Source of the DNA: Wenyingzhuangia sp. 2_MG-2023
GTDB taxonomy: Bacteria > Bacteroidota > Bacteroidia > Flavobacteriales > Flavobacteriaceae
Length of the DNA: 46,463 nucleotides
Assembly: GCF_030548295.1 (NCBI RefSeq)
Contig: NZ_JAUOSB010000022.1
Span: forward strand, 1-46,463
Reading direction: 5' to 3'
In this document: piece after piece, positions 2,952 to 46,387 of the stretch
Position numbering within the stretch: the stretch's first letter is position 1
How the letters are laid out: each line of letters begins with the position of its first letter
Program-made: the position numbers and the translations under genes
The notes under the pieces: model-generated
What the model was told of the DNA's origin: nothing
Database searches by the model: none
What the model saw: the letters and a program-made list of their open reading frames with translations, nothing else

Positions 2952-3890
2952 ATGATTAACAGAAGACATATTCGTGTAAAGGTGATGCAATCCGTTTACG
3001 CAATGATTCATGCTAAAAGTGACAATCTTATCAAAGAAGAAAAATTTCTAAGGATGAGTATTGATAAAATGTACGATTTGTACGTATTATCTTTAGATAT
3101 GTTGGTAAGAGTTAATCAACACGCAGAAAACAATTTAGAAGCTTCTAAGAAAAAATATTTTGCGACAAAAGAAGACTTAAATCCCAATAAAAAATTTATC
3201 AACAACAAGGTAATTGCTCTTTTAAAAGAGAGTGTATCCTTGCAGAATTATATAGAAGACCACAAGTTGAACAATTGGTATTTAGATAGTTCGTATGTTG
3301 GAAATCTTTACAAGGCATTGATGACAAGTGATTTGTACAAAGATTACATGGCCGAAGAGGAAAATACCTTTAAAAAAGACCAGAAGTTTGTCATTAAGTT
3401 TTTTGAGGAATTTGTAGCTCCTAATGAAAAATTAGCGGAATACTACGAAGGTGAAAACATTAGTTGGGTAGATGATATTCCATTTGTAAATACATGGATT
3501 GTTAGAACGTTACAAGATCTAAAATCACAAAAACCCTTTGTCTTAGGAAAACTATACAAAAATTCTGATGATGAAGAATTTGCTTCTCATTTGTTTAGAA
3601 AGGTAGTGTTGAACTTGGCTATGTTTGAAAAAGAAATAGAAGACAAAACTCCTAACTGGGAAACAGATCGTATTGCCGATGTAGACATGATTCTAATCAA
3701 AATGGCAATTTGTGAATTTTTAAAGTTTCCATCCATTCCGGTAAAAGCAAGTATCAACGAATATTTAGAAATAGCAAAAGACTATTCTACAGATAAGAGT
3801 AGTGTATTTATCAATGGAGTTTTAGACAAAATTTGGAAAGATTTTGAAGAAAGAAAAATATTGAATAAAATAGGAAGAGGAACTTTGTAA
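2952..3890 (+). CDS. nusB: Transcription antitermination factor NusB
   Basis: 312 aa from the ATG at 2952 (MINRRHIRVKVMQ). The frame is open further upstream only through a TTG start that would lie before the promoter box. NusB binds boxA RNA with NusE/S10 in rRNA antitermination complexes. The protein has the long Bacteroidota architecture: an N-terminal NusB-type start (RRHIRVKVMQSVYA), a long helical insertion, then the conserved C-terminal part around DVDMILIKMAICEFL…PVKASINEYLEIAK with FINGVLDKIW. It is about twice the length of E. coli NusB, which is usual in this phylum. It is followed after 79 bp by yajC on the same strand. Confidence 0.93.
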   Translation: MINRRHIRVKVMQSVYAMIHAKSDNLIKEEKFLRMSIDKMYDLYVLSLDMLVRVNQHAENNLEASKKKYFATKEDLNPNKKFINNKVIALLKESVSLQNYIEDHKLNNWYLDSSYVGNLYKALMTSDLYKDYMAEEENTFKKDQKFVIKFFEEFVAPNEKLAEYYEGENISWVDDIPFVNTWIVRTLQDLKSQKPFVLGKLYKNSDDEEFASHLFRKVVLNLAMFEKEIEDKTPNWETDRIADVDMILIKMAICEFLKFPSIPVKASINEYLEIAKDYSTDKSSVFINGVLDKIWKDFEERKILNKIGRGTL

Positions 3891-3969
3891 AATTCCTTAA
3901 AAAATTAAAATATCCTTCTATATTTACCGTATTAAAATAAATTAAAAATAGACATTAAATAAGTTTAAA

Positions 3970-4275
3970 ATGATAGCATTACAAGAAAGTCCAATGAGTC
4001 CTATATTCTTAATAGTGATGGCAATTTTCGTAGTATTTTTTATGATCATTCCACAAGTAAGAAAAAGTAAGAATGAAAAGAAATTTAAAGCATCTTTGAC
4101 CAAAGGAACTAAAGTAGTAACTACAGGAGGTATTCATGGTAAATTGTTAGAAATTAACGAAGGTACTGTAATGATTGAAACCAATGCAGGAAAATTATTG
4201 CTAGAAAAATCAGCATTAAACATGGAATTGACCAAGCAATACAACGCACCGGCAACTCCTGAAAAGAAGAAATAA
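3970..4275 (+). CDS. yajC: Preprotein translocase accessory subunit YajC
   Basis: 101 aa. One N-terminal transmembrane helix (about residues 12-30, IFLIVMAIFVVFFMIIP) is followed by the basic RKSKNEKKF segment and a cytoplasmic domain containing KGTKVVTTGGIHGKL, the YajC hallmark. YajC associates with SecDF at the Sec translocon. The size is normal. The nusB-yajC neighbourhood is common in flavobacteria. A strong hairpin terminator follows the stop codon. A TATATTTA box at 3919-3926, one mismatch from the -7 consensus, may give it its own promoter. Confidence 0.93.
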   Translation: MIALQESPMSPIFLIVMAIFVVFFMIIPQVRKSKNEKKFKASLTKGTKVVTTGGIHGKLLEINEGTVMIETNAGKLLLEKSALNMELTKQYNAPATPEKKK

Positions 4276-4301
4276 TCAATAAGCTTTTTTAAGCAAGTTC
4301 T

Positions 4302-4340
4302 AAACGTCTTTAGTTTTTACTAAAGACGTTTTTGTTTTTA
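4302..4340 (+). terminator. Intrinsic terminator after yajC
   Basis: A 12-bp perfect stem (AAACGTCTTTAG / CTAAAGACGTTT) with loop TTTTTA is followed by a T-rich run. It starts 27 bp after the yajC stop and separates the nusB-yajC unit from ybbR. Confidence 0.88.
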
Positions 4341-4385
4341 AGAATCTATAGTGCTTTTTAGAGAGCATTTCTTATTTTAGCTACT

Positions 4386-5336
4386 ATGAAACTAGGTACA
4401 AAACCAACCCTTTTTAAGTTTAACAAAAGAAGAGATGTTGTTTTCTTTATTTTTGTGATAGCAACTTTTATTTTTTGGTTTTTAAACAAATTGTCAAAAG
4501 AATACACACAAGATATTTATTGCAATATATCTTATACAGAGCTTCCTAATAAGTTTGTGTTTCAAGAGGATCCACCTGAACAACTTGCTTTTTTGGTAAG
4601 AGCCAATGGTTTTTATCTTTTCAATGCAGCGTTTAAAAATAAGGATTTGACTGTGTCTTTAAAAAAAATTAAAAGAAAAGACAAGTTTCGTTATTATTTA
4701 TTGGGGAATGAACTCAAAAGACAAGCACATGAAAAATTCAACGATCGAATAGCTATTTTAGACGTATTAAAAGATACGTTGTTTGTTACGTTGGGAAAAA
4801 AAAGTTTTAAAAAAGTACCCATAAAACCAGATGTGAATTTGGATTACCATTCTGGATACAAATCGTTTTCTGATTATGTCATTCAACCAGATTCTATTGA
4901 AGTTTCTGGACCAGAAATGCAAATTGCTAAAATAAAACACATCAAATTAAAACCCTTTCATAAAGAAGATGTAATGTCTTCTATTGAAGAAGAGTTAGAA
5001 ATACTGAAAGCCGACATTCCCAAAGTTAGTTACAGTGAAACAAAAGTAAAACTGAGTGTTTTGGTAGAAAAAATTACTGAAAAAACAATCTTAGTTCCTG
5101 TAAAAATCATCAATACTCCCGCAAGTGAAGTGGTCATTTATCCAAAAAAAATCAAATTAAGTTGTCAGGTTAAATTGTCAGATTTTCATAAAATTACGGC
5201 AAAAGATTTCACTATTGTCTGTGATTATAAAAAAAGAAAAGACAATTATATGGAAGCTGAATTGACAGAAAGACCTACCGAAGTTACAGCAGTTAAGATT
5301 GCAAGAAACAAAGTAGAATATTTAATTTTAAAGTAA
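4386..5336 (+). CDS. YbbR-like (CdaR-type) domain membrane protein
   Basis: 316 aa. An N-terminal transmembrane helix (about residues 19-35, VVFFIFVIATFIFWFLN) is followed by an extracytoplasmic beta-rich region containing YbbR-like repeats. These are recognised by PDVNLDYHSGYKSFSDYVIQ, DSIEVSGPEMQIAKI and the related C-terminal repeat with VSYSETKVKLSVLVEKI. In Firmicutes such proteins (CdaR) modulate the CdaA cyclic-di-AMP synthase. In flavobacteria the role is unproven and no cyclase gene is adjacent here. The stop codon overlaps the coaE start (TAATG), implying translational coupling. Confidence 0.75.
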   Translation: MKLGTKPTLFKFNKRRDVVFFIFVIATFIFWFLNKLSKEYTQDIYCNISYTELPNKFVFQEDPPEQLAFLVRANGFYLFNAAFKNKDLTVSLKKIKRKDKFRYYLLGNELKRQAHEKFNDRIAILDVLKDTLFVTLGKKSFKKVPIKPDVNLDYHSGYKSFSDYVIQPDSIEVSGPEMQIAKIKHIKLKPFHKEDVMSSIEEELEILKADIPKVSYSETKVKLSVLVEKITEKTILVPVKIINTPASEVVIYPKKIKLSCQVKLSDFHKITAKDFTIVCDYKKRKDNYMEAELTERPTEVTAVKIARNKVEYLILK

Positions 5337-5920
5337 TGGTTGTTGGATTGACAGGGGGGATTGGAAGTGGAAAAAGCACCGTGTTGACTGAGTTTGAAAA
5401 ACTTGGAGTTCCTACTTATATAGCAGATGTAGAGGCCAAAAAAATAATGAATAGTTCAGAAGAAGTAAAGAGCCAAATAAAAGCTTTGTTAGGAGAAAAA
5501 GCATATTTGAATGATGTCTTAAACAGAGGGTATATAGCTGAAAAAGTTTTTAGTGATAAAAAATTATTAAAGCAGTTGAATGCTATTGTACATCCTGCAG
5601 TCCGTAAACATTTTCAAGATTTTATAAAAATGCAGACAACTCCTTACTTGGTGTATGAGAGTGCTATTTTATTTGAAAATAATACGGATGTATTGTGTGA
5701 CAAGATTGTTGTAGTTACTGCAGATTTAGAAGAAAGAATTTCAAGAGTAATAAAGCGTGATGGTGTCAGTAGAGCATCCGTTTTAGAACGAATGAACAAT
5801 CAATGGAGTCAAGAGGATAAAGTGAAAAAAGCAGATTTTATCATACAGAATAATCATGTTGAGCAATTGGAATCACAAGTGTTGCAACTACACAAACAAT
5901 TGCAAACCTACAGTCTGTAA
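5336..5920 (+). CDS. coaE: Dephospho-CoA kinase
   Basis: 194 aa, cytoplasmic. Catalyses the last step of coenzyme A synthesis, phosphorylating the 3'-hydroxyl of dephospho-CoA with ATP. The P-loop is at the extreme N-terminus (GLTGGIGSGKST, residues 4-15), followed by the family motif with IADVEAKKIMN and a central AIVHPAVRKHF. The lid-type segment EERISRVIKRDGVSRASVLERM and the terminal KADFIIQNN motif are typical. Normal length. The ATG overlaps the ybbR stop by one base, so the two genes are co-translated. Confidence 0.95.
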   Translation: MVVGLTGGIGSGKSTVLTEFEKLGVPTYIADVEAKKIMNSSEEVKSQIKALLGEKAYLNDVLNRGYIAEKVFSDKKLLKQLNAIVHPAVRKHFQDFIKMQTTPYLVYESAILFENNTDVLCDKIVVVTADLEERISRVIKRDGVSRASVLERMNNQWSQEDKVKKADFIIQNNHVEQLESQVLQLHKQLQTYSL

Positions 5921-5966
5921 TTTGATTTTTTATCAAAAAATGAGATTGTTATTATTTTTAAAATTT

Positions 5967-5991
5967 AAGCGTTTATATTTGCCAAACGCTT
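5967..5991 (+). promoter_or_regulatory. porQ promoter box inside a perfect 8-bp inverted repeat
   Basis: TATATTTG (5974-5981) matches the -7 consensus and is bracketed by AAGCGTTT (5967-5974) and AAACGCTT (5984-5991), a perfect inverted repeat with a 9-bp spacer. A TTG at 5946-5948 is 25 bp upstream of the box, slightly beyond the usual spacing. The porQ ATG follows at 6001. The arrangement could be a repressor operator over the promoter of porQ-cmk. Confidence 0.5.
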
Positions 5992-6000
5992 GTCAAAAAT

Positions 6001-7008
6001 ATGAAGTATAAAATTTTACTTTTTTTAACGTTTTTGTTTCAAAATCTGTTCTCCCAAACAGGAGGAGAATCGTTGTATTCGTTTCTAAACACTCCTACAT
6101 CACCAAAGCAAATTGCACTTGGAGGTGTTACCTTAACCAGTAGAAATGATGTTTCTCAGTTGTTGTGGAATCCTTCTTCATTGAATGAAGAAATAGATGG
6201 AGATGTTTCTATAAACTTTGTGAATTACATTGCAGATATCAATGTAGGTTCTTTGGTTTATGCAAAATCTATCAATCCTAAATATGGAATGGCTTTTTTA
6301 GGAGTGCAATATTTTGATTATGGAGATTTGGACAGAACGGAAGCTTCTGGTCCTGAAATTTTAGGGAGTTTTTCTTCTAGAGATTTGGCTTTTAGTTTGG
6401 GATATGGATATGTGTACAAAATGGTTTCGGTTGGAGCCACGTTAAAATATGTGTCTTCTAAAATAGATGTGTACACTTCTACGGCTTTGTTGTATGACTT
6501 TGGAATTACATATTTAGATCCAAATTCATCTTTTGTAGCGTCTTTGGTTGTGAGGAATTCAGGAAAACAGTTGACACAATATATAGATACAGAAGAAAAG
6601 GTAAGCAACAACGTAATTTTGGCTGTGGAGTACAGTTTGGAACATATGCCTATTAAGTTTTACGGAGCCTTGGATGAATTGAACAATTGGGACATCAGTG
6701 AATCCAATCCATCTAGAGAGAAGGTAGATTTGAATGGAGAAGTAACAGAAGAAAATATATCAGAATTATCAAATGCTTTTCGTCATTTGTCAGTAGGAGC
6801 TGAGTTATGGCCAGAAAAGAAAATCAATTTAAGAATTGGTTACAATCATCGTAGAGCTCAAGAATTTCAATTGGAAGAAGTACGTACGTCCGCAGGTTTG
6901 TCTTACGGTTTTGGGATCAATACACGTTTGATTAAGTTTGATTATGCTTTTTCAAAATTTCAAGAAGGTGCTAAGTACAGTACTTTTGGTTTGACACTTC
7001 ACTTATAA
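6001..7008 (+). CDS. porQ: Type IX secretion system outer-membrane protein PorQ
   Basis: 335 aa with an N-terminal signal peptide (MKYKILLFLTFLFQNLFSQ), then an FadL/PorV-like outer-membrane beta-barrel. Recognised as PorQ by GGESLYSFLNTPTSPKQIALGG at the mature N-terminus (about residues 21-42), LLWNPSSLNEE and the terminal strand YSTFGLTLHL. In T9SS, PorQ partners with PorZ on the outer membrane to support the attachment complex. It lies only 3 nt upstream of cmk, a conserved linkage in Bacteroidota. Its presence implies that T9SS cargo with C-terminal sorting domains is exported here. Confidence 0.9.
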   Translation: MKYKILLFLTFLFQNLFSQTGGESLYSFLNTPTSPKQIALGGVTLTSRNDVSQLLWNPSSLNEEIDGDVSINFVNYIADINVGSLVYAKSINPKYGMAFLGVQYFDYGDLDRTEASGPEILGSFSSRDLAFSLGYGYVYKMVSVGATLKYVSSKIDVYTSTALLYDFGITYLDPNSSFVASLVVRNSGKQLTQYIDTEEKVSNNVILAVEYSLEHMPIKFYGALDELNNWDISESNPSREKVDLNGEVTEENISELSNAFRHLSVGAELWPEKKINLRIGYNHRRAQEFQLEEVRTSAGLSYGFGINTRLIKFDYAFSKFQEGAKYSTFGLTLHL

Positions 7009-7011
7009 TTT

Positions 7012-7701
7012 ATGAGTTCAAAAATTATCATTGCTATTGATGGACATTCATCAACCGGAAAGAGTACTGTTGCCAAAGAATTGGCCAAACACTTAGGGTA
7101 TATTTATGTAGATACAGGAGCTATGTACAGAGTTGTAGCTTTGTATGCCTTGCAAAATGGTTTTGCAAAAGATGGAGAAGTTGATGAGTTCTTATTGACT
7201 CAGAATTTAAAAAATATAGAAATAACGTTTCAGTACAATGCTTCTTTAGGTTTTTCAGAAGTGTATTTGAATGGTGTCAATTCTGAAAGTGAAATTAGAG
7301 AAATGGAAGTTTCTTCTTATGTTAGTAAAGTGGCTGTAATTTCTGCTGTAAGACAAAAATTAGTGGCTTTGCAACAACAAATGGGAGTTGACAGAGGAAT
7401 TGTAATGGACGGTAGAGATATAGGAACTGTAGTGTTTCCGAATGCTGAACTGAAATTGTTCATGACAGCTTCTGCAAAAACAAGAGCACAACGTAGGTTT
7501 GATGAATTAGTGGCCAAAGGAAATAGTTCTGTAACTTTTGATGAAGTTTACCACAACGTAGTAGAACGTGATCAAATAGATTCAACAAGAGAAGATTCTC
7601 CTTTGGTAATGGCAAAAGATGCAATAGAAATAGATAACTCCAATCTAACTAGAAAGGAGCAGTTTGACTATATTCTATCTTTAGTAGCAACTAAAATTTA
7701 A
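7012..7701 (+). CDS. cmk: (d)CMP kinase
   Basis: 229 aa, cytoplasmic. Phosphorylates CMP and dCMP with ATP. P-loop IDGHSSTGKST (about residues 9-19), substrate motif YVDTGAMYR (about 34-42), VMDGRDIGTVVFPNAELKLF and the LID arginines in KTRAQRRFDE, ending with RDQIDSTREDSPL. Full length. Starts 3 nt after porQ, so it belongs to that operon. Its last four bases overlap the end of queE on the opposite strand, leaving no room for a terminator between the two genes. Confidence 0.95.
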   Translation: MSSKIIIAIDGHSSTGKSTVAKELAKHLGYIYVDTGAMYRVVALYALQNGFAKDGEVDEFLLTQNLKNIEITFQYNASLGFSEVYLNGVNSESEIREMEVSSYVSKVAVISAVRQKLVALQQQMGVDRGIVMDGRDIGTVVFPNAELKLFMTASAKTRAQRRFDELVAKGNSSVTFDEVYHNVVERDQIDSTREDSPLVMAKDAIEIDNSNLTRKEQFDYILSLVATKI

Positions 7702-8327
7702 GGAATATTTAAATACTTGTGTGTTTGTAAAGAAATTTTCCATTGTGGATTTTTCATCACATAATCAACAATTAAAGGAGTCATTTTTTCTTTTTTACTC
7801 CACTCAGGTTGCAAATATAAAGTACACTTAGCCGATACTTTTGCAGCTTCTTCTTCCGCAAATAGAAAATCATTCTGATTGTGAATGATCATTTTTAGTT
7901 CATGAGCTTCTGGGTAAATACCTTCTAAAGGTAATTTTGTTTTTTTAGGAGACAAACAAATCCAATTCCACTGACCACTTAAAGGGTAAGCACCAGAGGT
8001 TTCTATATGGGTTTGTAAGCCTTTGTTTTGTAAAGAAGAAGTCAAGTACTGCATGTCCCACATCAAAGGTTCTCCACCTGTAATTACAATTGTTTTTGCG
8101 TATTTATTAGCGTTTTCAACAATGATATCTGCATGTGTAGGTGGGTGTAAGTTGGCATCCCAGCTCTCTTTTACATCACACCAATGGCAACCAACATCAC
8201 AACCACCAACTCTAATAAAATAAGCAGCAGTACCAGTATGATTTCCTTCACCTTGTATGGTGTAGAATTCTTCCATTAAAGGGAGCATAACTCCTTTGTT
8301 TACAAGTTCTTTGGTTTTTAAGTCCAT
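7698..8327 (-). CDS. queE: 7-carboxy-7-deazaguanine synthase (radical SAM)
   Basis: 209 aa from the ATG at 8327 (MDLKTKELVNKGV). The open frame extends about 100 codons further upstream, but that stretch runs antisense through the promoter and the next gene and is not QueE-like. QueE converts 6-carboxytetrahydropterin to 7-carboxy-7-deazaguanine in queuosine synthesis. The [4Fe-4S] motif is CDVGCHWC (CxxxCxxC), preceded by EEFYTIQGEG and followed by VITGGEPLMW and HIETSGAYP. The ending SLQTHKYLNIP is typical of the family. A TATCTTTG box upstream suggests a monocistronic transcript. No other queuosine gene is in the window. Confidence 0.94.
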   Translation of the reverse strand: MDLKTKELVNKGVMLPLMEEFYTIQGEGNHTGTAAYFIRVGGCDVGCHWCDVKESWDANLHPPTHADIIVENANKYAKTIVITGGEPLMWDMQYLTSSLQNKGLQTHIETSGAYPLSGQWNWICLSPKKTKLPLEGIYPEAHELKMIIHNQNDFLFAEEEAAKVSAKCTLYLQPEWSKKEKMTPLIVDYVMKNPQWKISLQTHKYLNIP

Positions 8328-8345
8328 CGGTTTTCTTTTGGAGTG

Positions 8346-8353
8346 CAAAGATA
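8346..8353 (-). promoter_or_regulatory. Candidate -7 promoter box for queE
   Basis: TATCTTTG on the minus strand, 18 bp upstream of the queE start codon, supports the internal ATG at 8327 over any longer reading. Confidence 0.5.
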
Positions 8354-8448
8354 CAAGAAAATAAAGAATAAAAATTATTTGTGACAAAAAGGTTATTTTA
8401 TCAATATCCAATTCAATTTGCTTAATTTTAGGGTTCAAAATTTTTAAC

Positions 8449-9009
8449 ATGAATAAACTAGTTTCCCTTTTCCTTTTAGGAATGTTGTTGGCAGCATGTA
8501 CCCAAAACAGCAACACTATTTCACTTAACAACGTAGGTCCAATTTCTAAGACCACCACCATTGAAAATATCAAAGAGTTATTTTCTAAAGATTCTATCGT
8601 TTCTAGATTGAGCGAAGGAGATTTGGGGAATTTAAATGTGTATGTACAAGACAATGATACTCATCTAATTTACAAAAAAGGAGGAGAGCTGTTGTTATCT
8701 GTAGCACCTGTAAATCCGTTAGATTCTGTTTCTAAGATAAAAAGCGTCACGGTTTTTAGTGATGTATATAAAACAGAAGAAGGAGTTGGAATTTCTTCTT
8801 CGTTTAATGATTTGAATGTGCATCACAATATAGAGAAGTTGGAAGCAACTTTTAAATTGGTTACCGTTTTTGTAAAAGACATCAACGCTACCTTTACATT
8901 GGACAAACAAGAATTAGGAATCAAAGCGTTTACTTTAGGAGCTGTAGACAAATCACAAATTCCAGAAAACGCAAAGTTTACTTCGATGACTGTTTGGTTT
9001 GAAGAGTAA
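8449..9009 (+). CDS. Hypothetical lipoprotein
   Basis: 186 aa. A lipoprotein signal peptide is clear: basic start MNK, hydrophobic core, lipobox LLAAC (Cys17). The mature part is about 170 residues with alternating hydrophobic and charged residues, suggesting a beta-rich periplasmic or outer-membrane-attached domain. I recognise no family. It is a single gene between divergent queE and convergent folD, and a bidirectional terminator follows 20 bp downstream. Confidence 0.7.
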   Translation: MNKLVSLFLLGMLLAACTQNSNTISLNNVGPISKTTTIENIKELFSKDSIVSRLSEGDLGNLNVYVQDNDTHLIYKKGGELLLSVAPVNPLDSVSKIKSVTVFSDVYKTEEGVGISSSFNDLNVHHNIEKLEATFKLVTVFVKDINATFTLDKQELGIKAFTLGAVDKSQIPENAKFTSMTVWFEE

Positions 9010-9030
9010 TATTTAAAACGTGATAACAAA

Positions 9031-9068
9031 AAAAGAAGCCCTTTGAATTGATTCAAAGGGCTTCTTTT
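9031..9068. terminator. Bidirectional terminator between lipoprotein gene and folD
   Basis: Long stem AAAAGAAGCCCTTTGAA / TTCAAAGGGCTTCTTTT with A and T runs at the two ends. It lies between two convergent genes (stops at 9009 and 9084) and can end both transcripts. Confidence 0.88.
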
Positions 9069-9083
9069 TTTATTTAGATTTTA

Positions 9084-9959
9084 TTAGGCTCTATTTTCTC
9101 CGGCTAATAATGTGTTTTTTAGTAACATAGCAATGGTCATTGGCCCTACACCTCCAGGAACAGGAGTAATGAAATCTGCTTTGGGAGCAACAGATTCAAA
9201 ATGTACATCTCCAGCCAAACGGAAACCACTTTTCTTGGTAGCATCGTTCAAACGTGTAATTCCCACATCAATAATGGTTACACCTTGTTTTACCATGTCA
9301 CCCGTTAGGAATTCTGCAACTCCTAAAGCAACTACAATAATGTCTGCTTTTAATGTTAATTCTTTTAAGTTGGCTGTTCTAGAATGAGCCACTGTAACGG
9401 TAGCGTCACCGGCTGCTCTTTTTTGAGACATTAAAATACTCATGGGTCTACCAACAATATGAGAACGACCAATTACGACTACGTTTTTACCAGAAGTTGG
9501 AACTTTGTAACGCTCTAACAATTCCATCACCCCATAAGGAGTTGCGGGTAAAAAAGTAGGTAATTCTAAAGCCATTCGTCCTACATTGGCAGGATGAAAA
9601 CCATCTACATCTTTTGTAGGATCTACAGCCAATAAGACTTTGTGTTCGTCTATATGTTTCGGTAAAGGTAATTGAACAATGTAACCGTCAATAGCACTGT
9701 TGTTGTTCAACTCTTCAATTTTGGCAAGTAAATCAGCTTCGGTAGTATCTTCTGACAATTCTATCAAGGTAGAGTCAAAACCAACCAACTCACAAGCTTT
9801 TACTTTGGCACCTACGTAGGTTTTACTAGCACCATCGTTTCCAACAATTACAGCAGCCAAGTGAGGTGTTTTTTTACCTTGTGCTTTTAATTCTTTTACT
9901 TTTTCTGCAATTTCTATTTTGATGTCTGCAGAGGTTTTTTTACCGTCTAATATGGTCAT
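9084..9959 (-). CDS. folD: Bifunctional methylenetetrahydrofolate dehydrogenase/cyclohydrolase
   Basis: 291 aa, cytoplasmic. Interconverts 5,10-methylene-, 5,10-methenyl- and 10-formyl-tetrahydrofolate with NADP. Diagnostic motifs: [12 protein letters not shown] with the catalytic lysine region (about residues 49-60), [13 protein letters not shown], the Rossmann segment [18 protein letters not shown] and the C-terminal signature [14 protein letters not shown]. Normal length. It follows ffh on the same strand with a 98-bp gap containing an inverted repeat, and it probably shares the ffh transcript at least in part. Confidence 0.95.
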
Positions 9960-9971
9960 CTTGTTATTTTT

Positions 9972-10051
9972 AGTACTGAGTACTTAGTACACAGTAGTAA
10001 GTTTAATTGTTGCTTGTAAAACTAATTACTCAGTATTGTGTGCTGAATACT
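9972..10051. repeat. Imperfect inverted repeat between ffh and folD
   Basis: Two AGTACT/AGTATT-rich arms of about 30 bp (9972-10001 and 10020-10051) pair imperfectly, roughly two thirds matching, around a short spacer. The gap contains no gene. It may be an RNA-processing or weak termination structure between the two minus-strand genes, or a copy of a dispersed intergenic repeat. Confidence 0.5.
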
Positions 10052-10057
10052 AAAATA

Positions 10058-11404
10058 TTACATTCCTGGCATTCCGTTTTTAGCACCTTGCATCATCTGC
10101 ATCATTTTTTTAGCACCACCACCTTGCATCATTTTCATCATTTTGCTCATTTGAAAAAACTGCTTTAATAGTTGGTTTACTTCAGTGATAGAAGTACCAG
10201 ACCCTTTAGCAATTCTTTTTTTACGAGAAGCATCAATCGTTTTAGGTTCTGTTCTTTCTAAAGGAGTCATAGAATTGATAATTGCTTCAATACCTTTAAA
10301 AGCATCGTCATCTATATCTACATCTTTTAGGGCTTTTCCTGCACCTGGTATCATTCCTACCAAGTCTTTCATGTTACCCATTTTTTTGATTTGTTGAATC
10401 TGACTTAAGAAATCATCAAAACCAAATTGATTTTTTGCGATTTTTTTCTGAAGCTTTCTAGATTCTTCTTCATCAAACTGTTCTTGAGCACGTTCTACCA
10501 AGGAAACAACATCTCCCATTCCCAAAATACGATCGGCCATACGATCTGGGTGGAAAACGTCAATAGCTTCCATCTTTTCTCCTGTACCAATAAACTTGAT
10601 AGGTTTGTCTACCACAGATTTGATCGTCAACGCAGCTCCACCACGAGTATCACCATCCAATTTGGTAAGTACAACTCCATCAAAGTTTAACAAGTCGTTA
10701 AAAGCTTTGGCAGTGTTTACAGCATCTTGTCCTGTCATAGAATCTACCACAAACAAGGTTTCTTCTGGATGTACTGCTTTGTGAATGTTAGAGATCTCGG
10801 TCATCAAAGCTTCGTCAATAGCCAAACGACCCGCAGTATCTATAATTACGGTATTTTTTCCATTTGCTTTGGCATAAGCAATGGCATTTTTGGCAATTTC
10901 AACAGGATTTTTATTGTCAACTTCGGCATATACTTCTACACCTATTTGCTCTCCCACAACCTGTAGTTGATTGATGGCAGCAGGTCTATAAACATCGGCT
11001 CCAACCAACAATACTTGTCTTGTTTTTTTTGTTTTTAAATAGTTGGCTAATTTACCAGAAAAAGTAGTTTTTCCAGAACCTTGCAAACCAGCCATTAAAA
11101 TTACTGTAGGGTTTCCGCTTAAATTTACCCCAGCAGTTTCTCCTCCCATCAAATCTGTCAACTCGTCTTTTACGAGTTTCACCATCAATTGACTTGGGTT
11201 TAATGTGGTTAATACATTTTGACCAATGGCTTTTTCTTTAACACGTACAGTAAAATCTTTAGCAATTTTAAAGTTAACGTCGGCATCTAACAATGCTCTA
11301 CGAACTTCTTTTAAGGTCTCTGCTACATTTACTTCCGTTATTTTTCCGTGTCCTTTTAAAAGATGTAAGGCTTTATCTAGTTTATCTGATAAATTATTAA
11401 ACAT
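10058..11404 (-). CDS. ffh: Signal recognition particle GTPase Ffh
   Basis: 448 aa. SRP54 homologue that binds 4.5S RNA and signal peptides and targets membrane proteins to FtsY. N domain (1-~85), G domain with P-loop GLQGSGKTTFSGKLA, G3 DTAGRL, G4 TKLDGDTRGGAA and closing GTGEKMEAIDVFHPDRMADRILGMGDV, then a methionine-rich M domain ending in KMMKMMQGG…KMMQMMQ. The C-terminal Met-rich tail is typical. A TATATTTG promoter box lies 32 bp upstream. folD follows on the same strand. Confidence 0.97.
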   Translation of the reverse strand: MFNNLSDKLDKALHLLKGHGKITEVNVAETLKEVRRALLDADVNFKIAKDFTVRVKEKAIGQNVLTTLNPSQLMVKLVKDELTDLMGGETAGVNLSGNPTVILMAGLQGSGKTTFSGKLANYLKTKKTRQVLLVGADVYRPAAINQLQVVGEQIGVEVYAEVDNKNPVEIAKNAIAYAKANGKNTVIIDTAGRLAIDEALMTEISNIHKAVHPEETLFVVDSMTGQDAVNTAKAFNDLLNFDGVVLTKLDGDTRGGAALTIKSVVDKPIKFIGTGEKMEAIDVFHPDRMADRILGMGDVVSLVERAQEQFDEEESRKLQKKIAKNQFGFDDFLSQIQQIKKMGNMKDLVGMIPGAGKALKDVDIDDDAFKGIEAIINSMTPLERTEPKTIDASRKKRIAKGSGTSITEVNQLLKQFFQMSKMMKMMQGGGAKKMMQMMQGAKNGMPGM

Positions 11405-11436
11405 ATGCTGTTTTTTGCTTCATTATAGTTAAAGTG

Positions 11437-11444
11437 CAAATATA
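11437..11444 (-). promoter_or_regulatory. Candidate -7 promoter box for ffh
   Basis: TATATTTG on the minus strand, 32 bp upstream of the ffh ATG. Consensus TAnnTTTG match. Confidence 0.5.
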
Positions 11445-11485
11445 CAAGAATATCCTAAATTTTAAAGATTTTAAAAGCAACAAAA

Positions 11486-11507
11486 AACCTTCCCAAAGAG
11501 GAAGGTT
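11486..11507 (-). terminator. Intrinsic terminator downstream of msrB
   Basis: Stem AACCTTCC/GGAAGGTT with loop CAAAGA, followed in the minus-strand direction by a T run (read as AAAAAA on the plus strand just before the stem). It lies about 125 bp beyond the msrB stop. The sequence between is A/T-rich with no gene. Confidence 0.7.
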
Positions 11508-11632
11508 CAATTTGTAAAACTAAAAACAAAAACTATTTACATCTATCAAGTTTTCGATGCTTAAAAAAGCAAATCAAAAACTTATATTTTTATAAATTTA
11601 AGAAATAAATAATTGATAATCATTAACTTGTG

Positions 11633-12097
11633 TTAGTTGTCTTTGTTTTTTTTGAATACTAAAGCTGCAGAGTTTACACAATAACGTTTTCCTGTTGTTT
11701 TTTTAGGACCGTCTAAAAAAACATGTCCCAAATGTCCATCGCATATATTGCATACAACCTCGGTACGTAACATACCGTATTTATGGTCTTCTAGAAAAGA
11801 GACATTGTTGGCTATATGATTGTCAAAAGATGGCCAACCCGTACCTGAATCAAACTTGGTTTCTGAAGAAAATAGAGGAGTGTTGCAACCCGAACAATAG
11901 TAAATTCCTTGTCCGTATTCTTTGTTTAGTTTGCCACTAAAAGCATATTCAGTTCCTTTTTTTCTTAAAATAGTAAATTGCTTTTCGGTTAATTGTTTTT
12001 TCCATTCTGCTTCTGTTTTTACAACTTTTTGTTGTGCATTGCTGGCAAAAGAAATGGCAAAAATAGCTGTGGTTATAAATATTTGTATGGGTTTCAT
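11633..12097 (-). CDS. msrB: Peptide-methionine (R)-S-oxide reductase, exported
   Basis: 154 aa from the ATG at 12097, chosen because it begins a clean signal peptide (MKPIQIFITTAIFAISFASNA). MsrB reduces methionine-R-sulfoxide in proteins, here in the periplasm. Zinc-binding pairs CSGC and CNIC are present, with the core motifs SGTGWPSF, GHLGHVF and RYCVNSAALVF, whose Cys is catalytic. It is divergent from the M48 lipoprotein gene (95-bp gap). The domain is complete and there is no fused MsrA. Confidence 0.94.
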   Translation of the reverse strand: MKPIQIFITTAIFAISFASNAQQKVVKTEAEWKKQLTEKQFTILRKKGTEYAFSGKLNKEYGQGIYYCSGCNTPLFSSETKFDSGTGWPSFDNHIANNVSFLEDHKYGMLRTEVVCNICDGHLGHVFLDGPKKTTGKRYCVNSAALVFKKNKDN

Positions 12098-22061: not shown

Positions 22062-22131
22062 CGGTCATTTCCTAAATATACACAAACTTTTGAGGAAGTA
22101 CTAAATCCGTATTAAGTGGAGGTGTTAGGCA
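22062..22131 (-). repeat. Dispersed attC-like repeat, copy B
   Basis: A ~70-bp gene-free segment lies between the DUF4435 stop (22139) and the YdeI-like start. It aligns end to end with 44680-44753, sharing blocks such as TAAATATA, TGAG.AAG.AC.AAA, ATTAA and a terminal TGTT(A)GGC. Its end carries GTTAGGC, matching the integron attC core pattern GTTRRRY. Located at the 3' end of the ATPase/DUF4435 module. Confidence 0.6.
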
Positions 22132-22138
22132 ATAGTTA

Positions 22139-22918
22139 TTATTTAAAGAAATTTAAAATTTGATTCTTTCGTAGATTTAAATTTTTTGAATGATCAGTTC
22201 CACTAGTTGTAGTTTTAAAAATTAAATCAAAAAGCTGATCAGTACTATATTTAACTTCATTTTTCTTCCTTTGTTGGAATATTTTCTCGAAAATTTGAAA
22301 TAAGAATTTACCTCTTAAATGAGTCTGATAATTATCTTTTACCATTTGTTCTAATTCAATTTTAGCTTTTTTTACTTTTCTCTTTTCAATAAATTTTTCA
22401 GTGAATATAGTTGATTTTTTTTCCATGACTTGGTGATTTAGAATTGTAACTTCGGAGAATTTACAATCACTAACGTCTTTGTTTAGATACTTTTCAATCT
22501 CGTAAGAAAACCATTCACAAATATTATTGAGAATTTCTTTTTTAGTGTTAATTTCCTCGGGTGTTAAAAGTGAGTTTAAGAAGTTAATACCATCTTGATA
22601 TAATTCATTTTCAATTGAGTAGCCATTAGTTGTAATAAGGTCAGTATTGGTCGTTTTATCTTCTTCAAATATCCATAAATCAGAATCACATATAAAAAGT
22701 AAATCAGACTCGATTTTATCTTTTGACTCATAAACTTTCAATAAAGCTGTTCTACCATTGCATGGTAGAATATTGATATCTAAGTCATCTATTTGATTTT
22801 CAATTTGATTATATATTGATAAATCGTCTTTACCTTCTATTAAAACAGTTTTTAAACTACTTTTTTTAAGAGTAGCGATTATTATTTCTGGAGTTAAAGG
22901 TGTTTTTCTTTTAGCCAT
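22139..22918 (-). CDS. DUF4435 TOPRIM-like protein (AriB-like effector)
   Basis: 259 aa, cytoplasmic. DUF4435 features: VLIEGKDDLSIY (candidate catalytic Glu28 of a TOPRIM fold), LPCNGRTALLKV (about 51-62), FICDSDLWIF (Asp78/Asp80, the TOPRIM DxD) and NGYSIENEL (about 98-106), followed by a helical C-terminal half. In PARIS defence the DUF4435 partner AriB is a TOPRIM nuclease held and released by the ATPase AriA. That system is known to cleave host tRNA on phage signals. Here the start codon overlaps the ATPase stop by one base (TAATG), so the two are coupled. All candidate acidic residues are intact, unlike the ATPase frame. Confidence 0.82.
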   Translation of the reverse strand: MAKRKTPLTPEIIIATLKKSSLKTVLIEGKDDLSIYNQIENQIDDLDINILPCNGRTALLKVYESKDKIESDLLFICDSDLWIFEEDKTTNTDLITTNGYSIENELYQDGINFLNSLLTPEEINTKKEILNNICEWFSYEIEKYLNKDVSDCKFSEVTILNHQVMEKKSTIFTEKFIEKRKVKKAKIELEQMVKDNYQTHLRGKFLFQIFEKIFQQRKKNEVKYSTDQLFDLIFKTTTSGTDHSKNLNLRKNQILNFFK

Positions 22919-23983
22919 TAATTATTTCCTTTGTCTTCATTAATAATAATTTCTTTACTTTCATATTTTGAGTAAATAAACGGTGAGTGTGTAGCTATTA
23001 TAAATTGATTATCTTTTTTTTGTTTAAGGAGTGTAGGGAAAAGTAGTCTTTGCCAATCAGTATGTAGACTTAACTCTGGTTCATCTATGAATATTACTGA
23101 ATTATCGAAGAAAAAATTATAGCATAAAAAACTTAACATTTGTTTTTCACCAGCGGATAATTTATTAGATAGAATAGCTTCTTTGGCTTGACCTAATTCT
23201 AAGTTACCAGAGATTTTAATTGATTTTTCTTTAAAAATCTATTAAATTTGATAAAACTAGAAAAGGTCTTAGAATCTTAAATTTTTCTCCATCATTTTCT
23301 TTTACAATTTTTCGAATTCGTTCTAATGATTCTTTTTCTTTAGTATCACTATTAGCAACTATATTTAGAATATTTCTTGATTGATTGGCTTCTAATTTAC
23401 GTATCTTTTCTGAAATATCGGCATATTTATTACTCAATAAGTAATCAATATCTTCGGTAGATAATGAGGCTATAAATTTGTGATTGCTACTTGTAGAGAG
23501 ATTATCAGATATTGTATCAAGTGCTTCTCTCAATTGATTCCTTCTAAATCGTCGTCTATTTTGAGTGTTAGAATCTACACCAAACCCACCTTCTATTCTT
23601 CTAAATGTAGGAAAGAATAGTGAACCTTCTCTAGTATTATAGCTGTTAGGTAAATTCTCAAATTGACTAAAGGGTATTTCTTCTTTAATTTCTAATTCCG
23701 ATCTTTCACTTATAACTGAGAAATGAATAATTTTTTCTTGTTTTTCATTTTCTTTTAAAACTATAGTAATTTTACCTCCTTCTTTGTATTTTATTTCCGC
23801 ATATTCGAAGTACATTTCTTCAAAAATTTTATCGAAATTACCACTTACCATAAACCATAAAAGTTTTAGTAGAGTGGTTTTCCCGCAACCATTTTTTCCA
23901 GTAAGAATGTTTAAATCTTCATTGAATTCATAATAGCCACTAATTTTATTGTTTAAATTCTTTACTTCAAATGATTGTATCAT
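22918..23983 (-). pseudogene. ABC/AAA15-type ATPase (AriA-like), frame interrupted by a 1-nt shift
   Basis: Two frames together encode one RecF/SMC-like ATPase of about 354 aa. The first (23983-23231, 250 aa) has Walker A GKNGCGKT (residues 29-36). The second frame holds the signature LSAGEKQM, Walker B SVIFIDEPELSLH and switch FIIATHSPF. They are joined by a +1 shift at 23231-23240, where the mRNA reads GAU-UUU-UAA-A. Without the shift the product lacks the signature and Walker B and would be dead. Possible explanations are a sequencing indel in a homopolymer, true inactivation, or +1 slippage of tRNA-Phe at UUU before the UAA stop. Overlaps the DUF4435 start by one base. Confidence 0.82.
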
Positions 23984-44525: not shown

Positions 44526-44679
44526 GTTTTTAGTATTTATTATAATTTTTCATGTTATTCAATTATTTCGGTCAAACTTATTAGTGAGCAAAAGGAGTAA
44601 ATCCTTTAAGTACAGCTACTAATATGAAGTTTTATTTAGATGTGTATTTCTAATTTTACAAATCCAAACGAACAAAATT

Positions 44680-44753
44680 TGGCAATTTAGTAAATATAAG
44701 CAAAACTATGAGTAAGCACCAAACCTCATATTAATTTTAGCGAGTGTTGGCTA
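44680..44753 (-). repeat. Dispersed attC-like repeat, copy A
   Basis: A gene-free segment 40 bp beyond the arfB stop aligns with 22062-22131 over its whole length (shared TAAATATA, TGAG.AAG.AC.AAA, ATTAA and a final TGTT.GGC). Both copies sit on the 3' side of minus-strand genes in the same orientation. From memory the sequence resembles intergenic repeats found in many Flavobacteriaceae, often behind mobile or accessory genes. Confidence 0.6.
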
Positions 44754-44793: not shown

Positions 44794-45198
44794 TCAATCT
44801 GATTTAGGTGGTTTTCGTAAGTTTTTTATTGAAGACTGTCTTTTCTTGTTTTCAGTTTTTCGTTTTACAGATGCTTTGGTAGGTTTTGTTGCTCGTCTAA
44901 TTTTTGGACGGATTAAGTTTGCTTTCAGTAAAGTAATTAAACGTTCTGTAACCAAATCTTTATTTCTATGTTGTGATCTAGTTTCTTCGCAACTCAAACT
45001 AAGTATTTGCTCTTTGTTAATTCTGTTTTTTAGCTTTAACAGAATTATTTCTTTTTCTCTTAGATTAAGAGCTTCGCTATTGTTGATATTAAATAACACT
45101 TCTATTCTAGAAGATACTTTGTTGACATGTTGTCCACCTGCTCCAGAACTTTTACTAGCTTTAAAACTTAACTCGCTTATTAATGTTTGTAGGTCCAT
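44794..45198 (-). CDS. arfB: Peptidyl-tRNA hydrolase ArfB (YaeJ)
   Basis: 134 aa. Rescues stalled ribosomes by hydrolysing peptidyl-tRNA in an empty A site. Class I release-factor-like domain with the catalytic GGQ (residues 21-23) in SSGAGGQHVNKVSSRIEV. The C-terminal tail is long and basic (RRATKPTKASVKRKTENKKRQSSIKNLRK) and inserts into the mRNA channel. The sequence is complete. A 63-bp internal segment (45066-45128) is repeated at 46325-46387. Confidence 0.95.
   Translation of the reverse strand: MDLQTLISELSFKASKSSGAGGQHVNKVSSRIEVLFNINNSEALNLREKEIILLKLKNRINKEQILSLSCEETRSQHRNKDLVTERLITLLKANLIRPKIRRATKPTKASVKRKTENKKRQSSIKNLRKPPKSD
45066..45128 (-). repeat. Direct repeat, arfB-internal copy
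   Basis: 63 bp within arfB (around residues 24-44) that recur at 46325-46387 with a single mismatch, in the same orientation and 1259 bp apart. Confidence 0.9.
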
Positions 45199-45323: not shown

Positions 45324-45473
45324 GCAAGAAAACTAGCATTAATAGCGGATGATAATAAGTTGCTTAAACAGTGTTTTGCCATTGCTAAATCCGGTAGGAC
45401 TTATGATGAAATTTTTGTTTTTTACCTCAGTTCTTGGTTGGCTAATGTTTTTTATTTAGCTCTTTTATACTAG
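45324..45473 (+). pseudogene. Remnant of an IS110-like transposase C-terminus
   Basis: An open frame without start codon, stopping at TAG 45471-45473. It encodes about 49 residues beginning ARKLALIADDNKLLKQ and continuing CFAIAKSGRTYDEIF. The NKLLKQxFAIAKSG…YDE pattern is, as I recall it, the C-terminal end of IS110/IS116-family transposases. The frame is cut off upstream by TAA at 45318, and the N-terminal DEDD domain is absent from the window. It overlaps the 3' end of the zeta toxin gene on the opposite strand. Confidence 0.5.
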
Positions 45474-46050
45474 GAATGTATTCTTCAAGATATTCAGGAA
45501 AATCATTTTTTAATATAAATTGTTCTTCTTCAATTGTAAATAAGTGACTTGGGGTATCATTGTATTTACTTGTTTCAAAAAGAGTAACGGAATCGAAAAA
45601 CTTCCAATTTTCATTTAAATGTTTAAAACCTAATTCATATCTTTCTTTAACTTCATTATCTGGTACAAAATGACCACCATTTTCAAATCTAATACGAACT
45701 CTTTCCTTTGCTTTTTCAATTGAATCTAAGCAAAAGAAAACTATTTCAATTCTATAATTTTCAGATTTAAAAATCTTAGGCCAATACAGTGGAGTAGAGT
45801 TGAAGTTTGTTTCATAACAGAAATCAGCTCTGTTTTTAATAGAAGATTTTATTGTATTTTCAAGATCTTTTCTAGCAAGATTATGAGCCATTCTGTCTCT
45901 AAATTCAGTATCAATTAGTGATTCGTACTTTTCTTTATAGACTTTGTCATAATCATAAGCTTTTGTTTCTCCTTCAGTGAAAGCTTTTGAGAAAGAAGAT
46001 TTTCCAGAACCGTTACAACCAGCAATTACTAGTAATATTGGTTTATCCAT
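45442..46050 (-). CDS. Zeta-toxin-like P-loop kinase
   Basis: 202 aa, cytoplasmic. Walker A GCNGSGKS (residues 11-18) in VIAGCNGSGKSSFSKAF, then YDYDKVYKEKY and DFCYETNFNST with acidic and aromatic positions like those of zeta/PezT toxins, and a basic helix with KERVRIRFENGGHFVP that fits the zeta Arg-rich lid. Zeta toxins phosphorylate UDP-GlcNAc or other UDP-sugars and poison cell-wall synthesis. A housekeeping ATP-binding role is possible. The start overlaps by 8 bp a 53-aa gene that is probably the antitoxin. Confidence 0.82.
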   Translation of the reverse strand: MDKPILLVIAGCNGSGKSSFSKAFTEGETKAYDYDKVYKEKYESLIDTEFRDRMAHNLARKDLENTIKSSIKNRADFCYETNFNSTPLYWPKIFKSENYRIEIVFFCLDSIEKAKERVRIRFENGGHFVPDNEVKERYELGFKHLNENWKFFDSVTLFETSKYNDTPSHLFTIEEEQFILKNDFPEYLEEYIPSIKELNKKH

Positions 46051-46248: not shown

Positions 46249-46325
46249 AATATTTGCTAACGGTTGTGGTTAGGATTAGTACGGGGAGAAAAGGAGCAGA
46301 GCCTTTTCGAGCATGGACTAAGCCT
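46249..46325. repeat. Possible attC-like element upstream of the toxin module
   Basis: The sequence starting TTGCTAACGGTTGTGGTTAGG and containing a GAAAAGG…CCTTTTC stem (46288-46294 / 46302-46308) looks like the variable-stem repeats that flank mobile genes in Bacteroidota. It does not align well with copies A and B, so this is a resemblance from memory only. Confidence 0.35.
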
Positions 46326-46387
46326 AAGAGCTTCGCTATTGTTGATATTAAAAAACACTTCTATTCTAGAAGATACTTTGTTGACAT
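46325..46387 (-). repeat. Direct repeat, displaced fragment of arfB
   Basis: 62 of 63 bases match 45066-45128. The fragment carries no start or stop context of arfB and cannot be expressed as part of it. The rest of the window (46388-46463) holds no gene I can recognise. Confidence 0.9.

Follow-up and report, generated by a model that had tools for sequence, protein, structure and literature searches.

Anti-phage defence by PARIS depends on two proteins, AriA and AriB (PDB 8ux9, 8v45-8v49), in which an AAA_15/AAA_21 ATPase is found beside a DUF4435-type TOPRIM protein. In the published description the system is recognised by an ATPase matching AAA_15 (at least 32 bits) or AAA_21 (at least 27 bits) with an adjacent DUF4435 protein (at least 27 bits); AriA and AriB are described there as both required, deletion of either as non-toxic, and Ocr as the trigger (PMC9122126). 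The mechanism of PARIS and the non-toxicity of the single deletions are taken here from that description and a later one (PMC9122126, PMC12409363). Several other defence systems share parts of this architecture. For example, the ABC ATPase core is common to OLD class 1-3, Gabija, retron and Septu PtuA ATPases, and OLD proteins have a TOPRIM domain as well. The nuclease partner of PtuA is PtuB, a different nuclease. In OLD and GajA, unlike PARIS, the TOPRIM domain is fused to the ATPase.

A pair of the PARIS type is present in Wenyingzhuangia sp. 2_MG-2023, a member of the Flavobacteriaceae, on a stretch of 46,463 nucleotides (contig NZ_JAUOSB010000022.1) that is referred to below as the window. 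By fold, active site, partner and gene order this pair is PARIS-like, and we regard it as belonging to a compact branch of such pairs and as probably decayed, not as a working PARIS system.

Gene order, motifs and the ATPase frame

Both coding regions occupy positions 22139-23983 on the minus strand, where an earlier note on this DNA had placed them (Table 1), and the Walker A, LSAGE, Walker B and E28/D78/D80 motifs that it had listed are all present. The overlap of 1 nt that it had reported between the two genes also holds, for the start codon of the TOPRIM gene and the stop of the downstream ATPase frame. Two parts of its description were not confirmed, namely the DUF4435 identity of the TOPRIM protein, as judged by the Pfam profile, and a single ATPase of about 354 aa, the latter being the length obtained by reading across a frame break; the LSAGE signature and Walker B sit in a frame other than that of the 250-aa piece with Walker A.

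Table 1. Features of the PARIS-like pair and its edges in the window.
Feature	Position	Strand	Remarks
AriB-like TOPRIM (DUF4435-type) gene	22139..22918	-	259 aa, intact; E28, D78, D80; TxGYSIEN motif (97-104)
AriA-like ATPase, N-terminal piece	23231..23983	-	250 aa from ATG at 23983; Walker A GKNGCGKTT; halts at TAA 23231-23233 at the frame break
AriA-like ATPase, C-terminal piece, other frame	22918..23235	-	105 aa open; LSAGE signature, Walker B FIDEPELSLH, THSP; first ATG/GTG/TTG is M at 23139
Frame-break site between LSNLI and IKIS	23221..23239	-	19 nt vs 8 codons (24 nt) in 31/32 aligned relatives
Half attC-like repeat (R' side)	22073..22134	-	just after TOPRIM stop; first part of ~200-nt unit
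Repeat B, ~150 nt, dispersed in genome	24006..24165	-	ends in attI-like TATATAATAAGTT just upstream of ATPase

In the alignment of 32 relatives, the one that departs from the spacing of eight codons at the break columns has seven, and the window falls 5 nt short of the other 31. This deficit shifts the reading frame ahead of the signature and Walker B, and no full sensor would be made from the gene. It is also unlikely that the two pieces form a split but working ATPase, because the downstream frame offers no start codon until the signature motif has been passed. Searches of the organism's own genome gave one match to the TOPRIM protein and one to the N-terminal ATPase piece, both in the window, and no second copy of either. 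With the ATPase frame broken and no such second match, the functional defence pair proposed in the earlier note is not supported.

An error of sequencing or assembly, concealing an intact and working compact PARIS, is an unlikely source of the break. Such an error would be in keeping with a draft assembly of 253 contigs, with an intact TOPRIM gene and with ATPase pieces that jointly retain the conserved motifs; on the other hand, a shortfall of 5 nt relative to a spacing that 31 of 32 aligned relatives share is unlike the slip of one base in a homopolymer, and two neighbouring genes (260 and 333 aa) are equal in length to those of four genomes of the genus, so that the contig is not generally error-ridden. 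The window copy is a probable pseudogene of a compact PARIS branch, inactivated in this genome, to which we give a probability of about 0.78. The TOPRIM gene left behind would be expected neither to harm the cell nor to defend it, because the published deletion of ariA is non-toxic and abolishes defence.

Kinship with PARIS

Of the Pfam profiles AAA_15/AAA_21 and DUF4435, suggested in the earlier note as a check, those for the ATPase alone gave a match. AAA_15 is matched above its cut-off of 32.1 bits by both pieces (36.8 bits for the N-terminal and 46.1 bits for the C-terminal one) and AAA_21 by the C-terminal piece (54.5 bits; cut-off 27), which is what the published rule asks of the ATPase. 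These scores, and the recurrence of the pair elsewhere, go beyond what chance would give. Pfam DUF4435 does not match the window TOPRIM protein at E<=1, and the adjacent DUF4435 protein of at least 27 bits is accordingly absent; the only Pfam match of this protein is OLD-like_TOPRIM, below cut-off (18.9 vs 23.2 bits). PADLOC profiles, including that of AriB, gave no match to it up to E 10, and for the C-terminal ATPase piece the PtuA profile PDLC00289 ranked slightly above AriA (2.2e-20 vs 5.6e-20). A housekeeping RecF/SMC identity of the ATPase, which the earlier note had named as fatal to its own reading, was rejected: the two pieces reach 21.1 and 17.4 bits with SMC_N, far under the cut-off of 40, although one relative, L010, passes it (51.9 bits).

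Comparison with solved structures places the pair beside PARIS. In a sequence search of these structures AriA was the best match of both ATPase pieces (E 5e-7 and 3e-13), and AriB was retrieved from the PDB (E 7e-5) by a profile that combines the window TOPRIM with three relatives. The predicted model of the window TOPRIM (pLDDT 92.5, folded with a 32-row alignment) has AriB 8ux9_A as its sole PDB match at E<=0.001 (9.3e-5), with a modest Foldseek TM-score of 0.47 and an rmsd of 10.6. For the ATPase the AriA fold was recovered on a model of L011 (pLDDT 80.9), an intact relative that stands in for the window copy; the 15 matches at the head of its list are chains of AriA entries, the best at 7.7e-18. 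The active-site E and DxD of AriB are present as E28, D78 and D80, which are invariant in 35 of 35 aligned TOPRIM rows, as are G29 and D32, and this conservation would fit a tRNA-cutting enzyme of the PARIS kind. Together with relatives that are themselves adjacent pairs matching AriA and AriB profiles, these data support the kinship with PARIS. The differences from the described system are the length of the ATPase (464 aa in the PDB AriA vs 347-394 aa in 26 intact loci), a window TOPRIM under the DUF4435 cut-off and a window ATPase that is broken.

It is improbable that the pair acts instead as a DNA nuclease of the OLD/Gabija type or in some defence other than PARIS. The OLD-like character of the Pfam TOPRIM match and the additional matches of the ATPase to PtuA and GajA profiles would agree with such a function, but the structure matches are led by AriA and AriB, and ATPase and TOPRIM are encoded here by two genes whereas OLD classes 1-3 are described as holding both domains on one protein (PMC10568477). 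The nearest neighbours with a Pfam match, OmdA downstream and YHYH upstream, are, as far as the neighbours were classified, neither helicase nor nuclease.

A compact branch of PARIS-like pairs

Searches with the single TOPRIM sequence gave no relative in the genome-contig and viral-contig collections, and when run on samples of 299 and 395 genomes they recovered the organism's own genome alone. Relatives were obtained from plasmid and phage records and then by means of alignment A1, which yielded 33 genome loci; a TOPRIM profile applied to a sample of the phylum matched 7 of 390 genomes including the own one, the six others partially (E 4.5e-13 to 8e-4). The TOPRIM alignment of 35 rows (A4) omits L039, which is cut, and L041, and alignment A5 omits L012, L015, L039 and L041. 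In 30 of the 33 loci the TOPRIM start is adjoined by a single uninterrupted ATPase frame that includes the signature and Walker B, the exceptions being L015 and L039, cut by a contig end, and L012, with an in-frame stop. The latter locus, from a Cytophagaceae MAG, thus has an interrupted ATPase as well (4917-5984), its stop following SAGEK.

Counted from the first start codon, 26 of the intact ATPases are compact (347-394 aa) and four are long (419-428 aa); one intact compact pair is that of Sphingobacterium corticibacter (L016). The longer PARIS-like pairs (L010 of a P2-type phage, L040, L042 and L043) share the two-gene layout and the core motifs with the compact ones and differ from them in ATPase length and in the lack of the FFPTFRRIEGGF-type motif; in the trees of both proteins they are separated from the rest with 100/100 support, and L009, with an ATPase of 408 aa, falls on the compact side. 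In L010 the longer pair (4680-6783) is carried as cargo between GpV and GpS of the P2-type Escherichia phage. The TOPRIM tree joins the window protein with a Saprospiraceae sequence (90/79) within a group of nine Bacteroidota/Chlorobiota sequences (97/86). Besides the genome loci, pairs were found on a Lichenicola plasmid, in an Acinetobacter record and in the P2-type phage, and the compact form extends to Pseudomonadota, Cyanobacteriota, Chlorobiota and a Poribacteria MAG.

Across the family the AriA profile of PADLOC (PDLC04164) matches 32 of 32 ATPases, as do many PtuA models, and the AriB profile (PDLC02983) matches 33 of 35 aligned TOPRIM proteins at E<=0.01, the window one not being among them. 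DUF4435 is matched at E<=0.01 by 24 of 35 TOPRIM proteins and at the level of the published rule by two (L012, L013) of the ten near relatives checked. Six of 30 upstream ATPases (L019, L021, L022, L028, L034 and L041) gave no match to the canonical Walker A pattern; the first five, a subgroup of Bacteroidota, read GKNGSSKT in place of the usual glycine before the lysine.

A compact size is normal for a broad PARIS branch, because 26 of the 33 loci hold uninterrupted pairs with ATPases of 347-394 aa and the structure models of the window TOPRIM and of the L011 ATPase match AriB and AriA. Taken as a whole, the earlier interpretation of a compact or divergent Bacteroidota variant of PARIS stands in its PARIS kinship and in the compact size, is too narrow in its taxon, given the four further groups named above, and is not supported as to function. 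For the intact compact pairs we infer, by analogy with the described system, a PARIS mechanism. In these relatives the ABC-type, AriA-like ATPase would be a sensor that holds the AriB-like TOPRIM protein inactive; a phage protein would bind to this sensor, the freed TOPRIM protein would dimerise and cut host tRNAs with two metal ions, and this cutting would stop translation and phage growth.

The relatives also make it hardly credible that the window gene is rescued by a programmed +1 frameshift (TTT then TAA) giving full ATPase at a low rate. The stop does directly follow a TTT codon within a run of T, a slippery context that presumably resembles known +1 frameshift sites, but the single uninterrupted frame seen in 30 of 33 loci means that no such site is conserved, and the shifted product would be two residues short where spacing is nearly fixed.

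Integron-like surroundings

The surroundings of the probable pseudogene, as distinct from the pair itself, have features of integrons. In common with these are attC-like sites with complementary boxes, an attI-like end after a tyrosine recombinase and co-oriented cassettes; the differences are a recombinase under the cut-off of the IntI model with part of the model skipped, an attC-like unit of ~200 nt and a pair without a matching box. Complete units, which begin with a box ending AAC and close with GTT, follow the genes of mostly co-oriented arrays on contig C181 of genome G000 (the whole of L056) and in genome G228 (L078, positions 3163-12001, and L079; G228:C3). Five stretches contain 35 first boxes and 34 unit ends, which gave 30 paired cassettes. 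For 22 of these, at least 5 of the 7 positions after GTT agree with the reverse complement of the cassette's own R' box, and 8 fall short; 2000 shuffled pairings gave a mean of 3.6 and a maximum of 12. The complementarity of start box and R' box that characterises integrons is therefore found in the arrays of the genus. Two cassettes of L078 (6470-7270 and 9292-10092) encode an identical protein of 266 aa, suggestive of a cassette that was duplicated recently.

The array of G228 is preceded by a tyrosine recombinase (L078, positions 3163-4383; 407 aa; Phage_integrase 136 bits), after which comes TATATAACAAGTT. None of the seven genomes of the genus exceeds the cut-off of the IntI model TIGR02249 (265 bits); the best match that the own genome offers consists of two stretches (111 and 94 bits) with model positions 182-241 skipped, and matches below cut-off occur also in all 14 control genomes. 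The recombinase of the own genome (L085) was not observed next to an array, the only repeat-B match there being a weak one (E 0.006). The attC-like unit matches 112 of 299 genomes of the family including the own one, many over part of its length, and was found in three of seven genomes reached through the loci (Maribacter, Tamlana and a Tenacibaculum MAG); in none of L056, L078 and the window did an Rfam family reach its gathering score. The contig end of the window has two attC-like units, one nearly complete (44590-44751) and one partial (46259-46328), near genes for a Zeta-toxin-like protein (45442-46050) and an RF-1 domain protein (44794-45198).

A DNA search of the seven genomes of the genus matched repeats at both edges of the pair, while none of the six other genomes gave a match to the pair itself. 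Beside the conserved right flank, the left neighbour is a different gene in the five genomes read. The small accessory island of the earlier note is in this regard partly supported, by the absence of the pair from those six genomes and by the varying flank neighbour. Copies of repeat B were read at eight loci (L057-L063, L066), and six of them end in TATAACGAGTT, like orphan attI sites. Among seven attI-like ends tested, those of L057 and L061 lead into a unit whose box is complementary (with a weak core in L057), three leave less than 500 nt to look in, and L058 and the window have none. No complementary box with an R' core was found within 3,900 nt on the downstream side of the window's attI-like end, and the pair itself lacks the start box after GTT, complementary to its own R' box, of an integron cassette. 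A cassette origin of the pair is plausible and is put no higher than that, because the attI-like end of the window has no unit with a complementary box. That compact PARIS pairs are generally carried in arrays was considered and rejected, with none of 27 having an exact 10-nt GTT-box flank pair (expected 0.03) and no attC-like unit at E<=1e-3 in L011-L043. As a tentative picture, the genus and more than one third of the sampled family genomes may hold an integron-like capture system with a non-IntI recombinase and attC-like sites of ~200 nt, and a compact PARIS pair may have entered at a scattered attI-like site and then decayed, leaving half an attC-like site.

The pair itself is of modest significance; it reveals a compact PARIS branch that is spread over several phyla. 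The cassette context, if it holds, would carry more weight. It follows from the near relatives checked that the Pfam rule defining PARIS would miss eight of ten, and the window illustrates that two genes read by eye can hide a broken sensor. No recognised description of these arrays or of the compact branch was found in the literature covered, which is weak evidence of absence given that subscription journals and preprints were mostly outside it. Integrase genes in the Bacteroidetes/Chlorobi group were reported already in 2008 (PMC2426708), which counts against full novelty, and the IntegronFinder 2.0 paper names one complete integron in Bacteroidetes proper, that of Salinibacter ruber (PMC9024848). 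Because the repeat matches 112 family genomes as against one complete integron named, a large store of mobile accessory genes, possibly including defence genes, may be unrecognised in the family if the cassette context holds.
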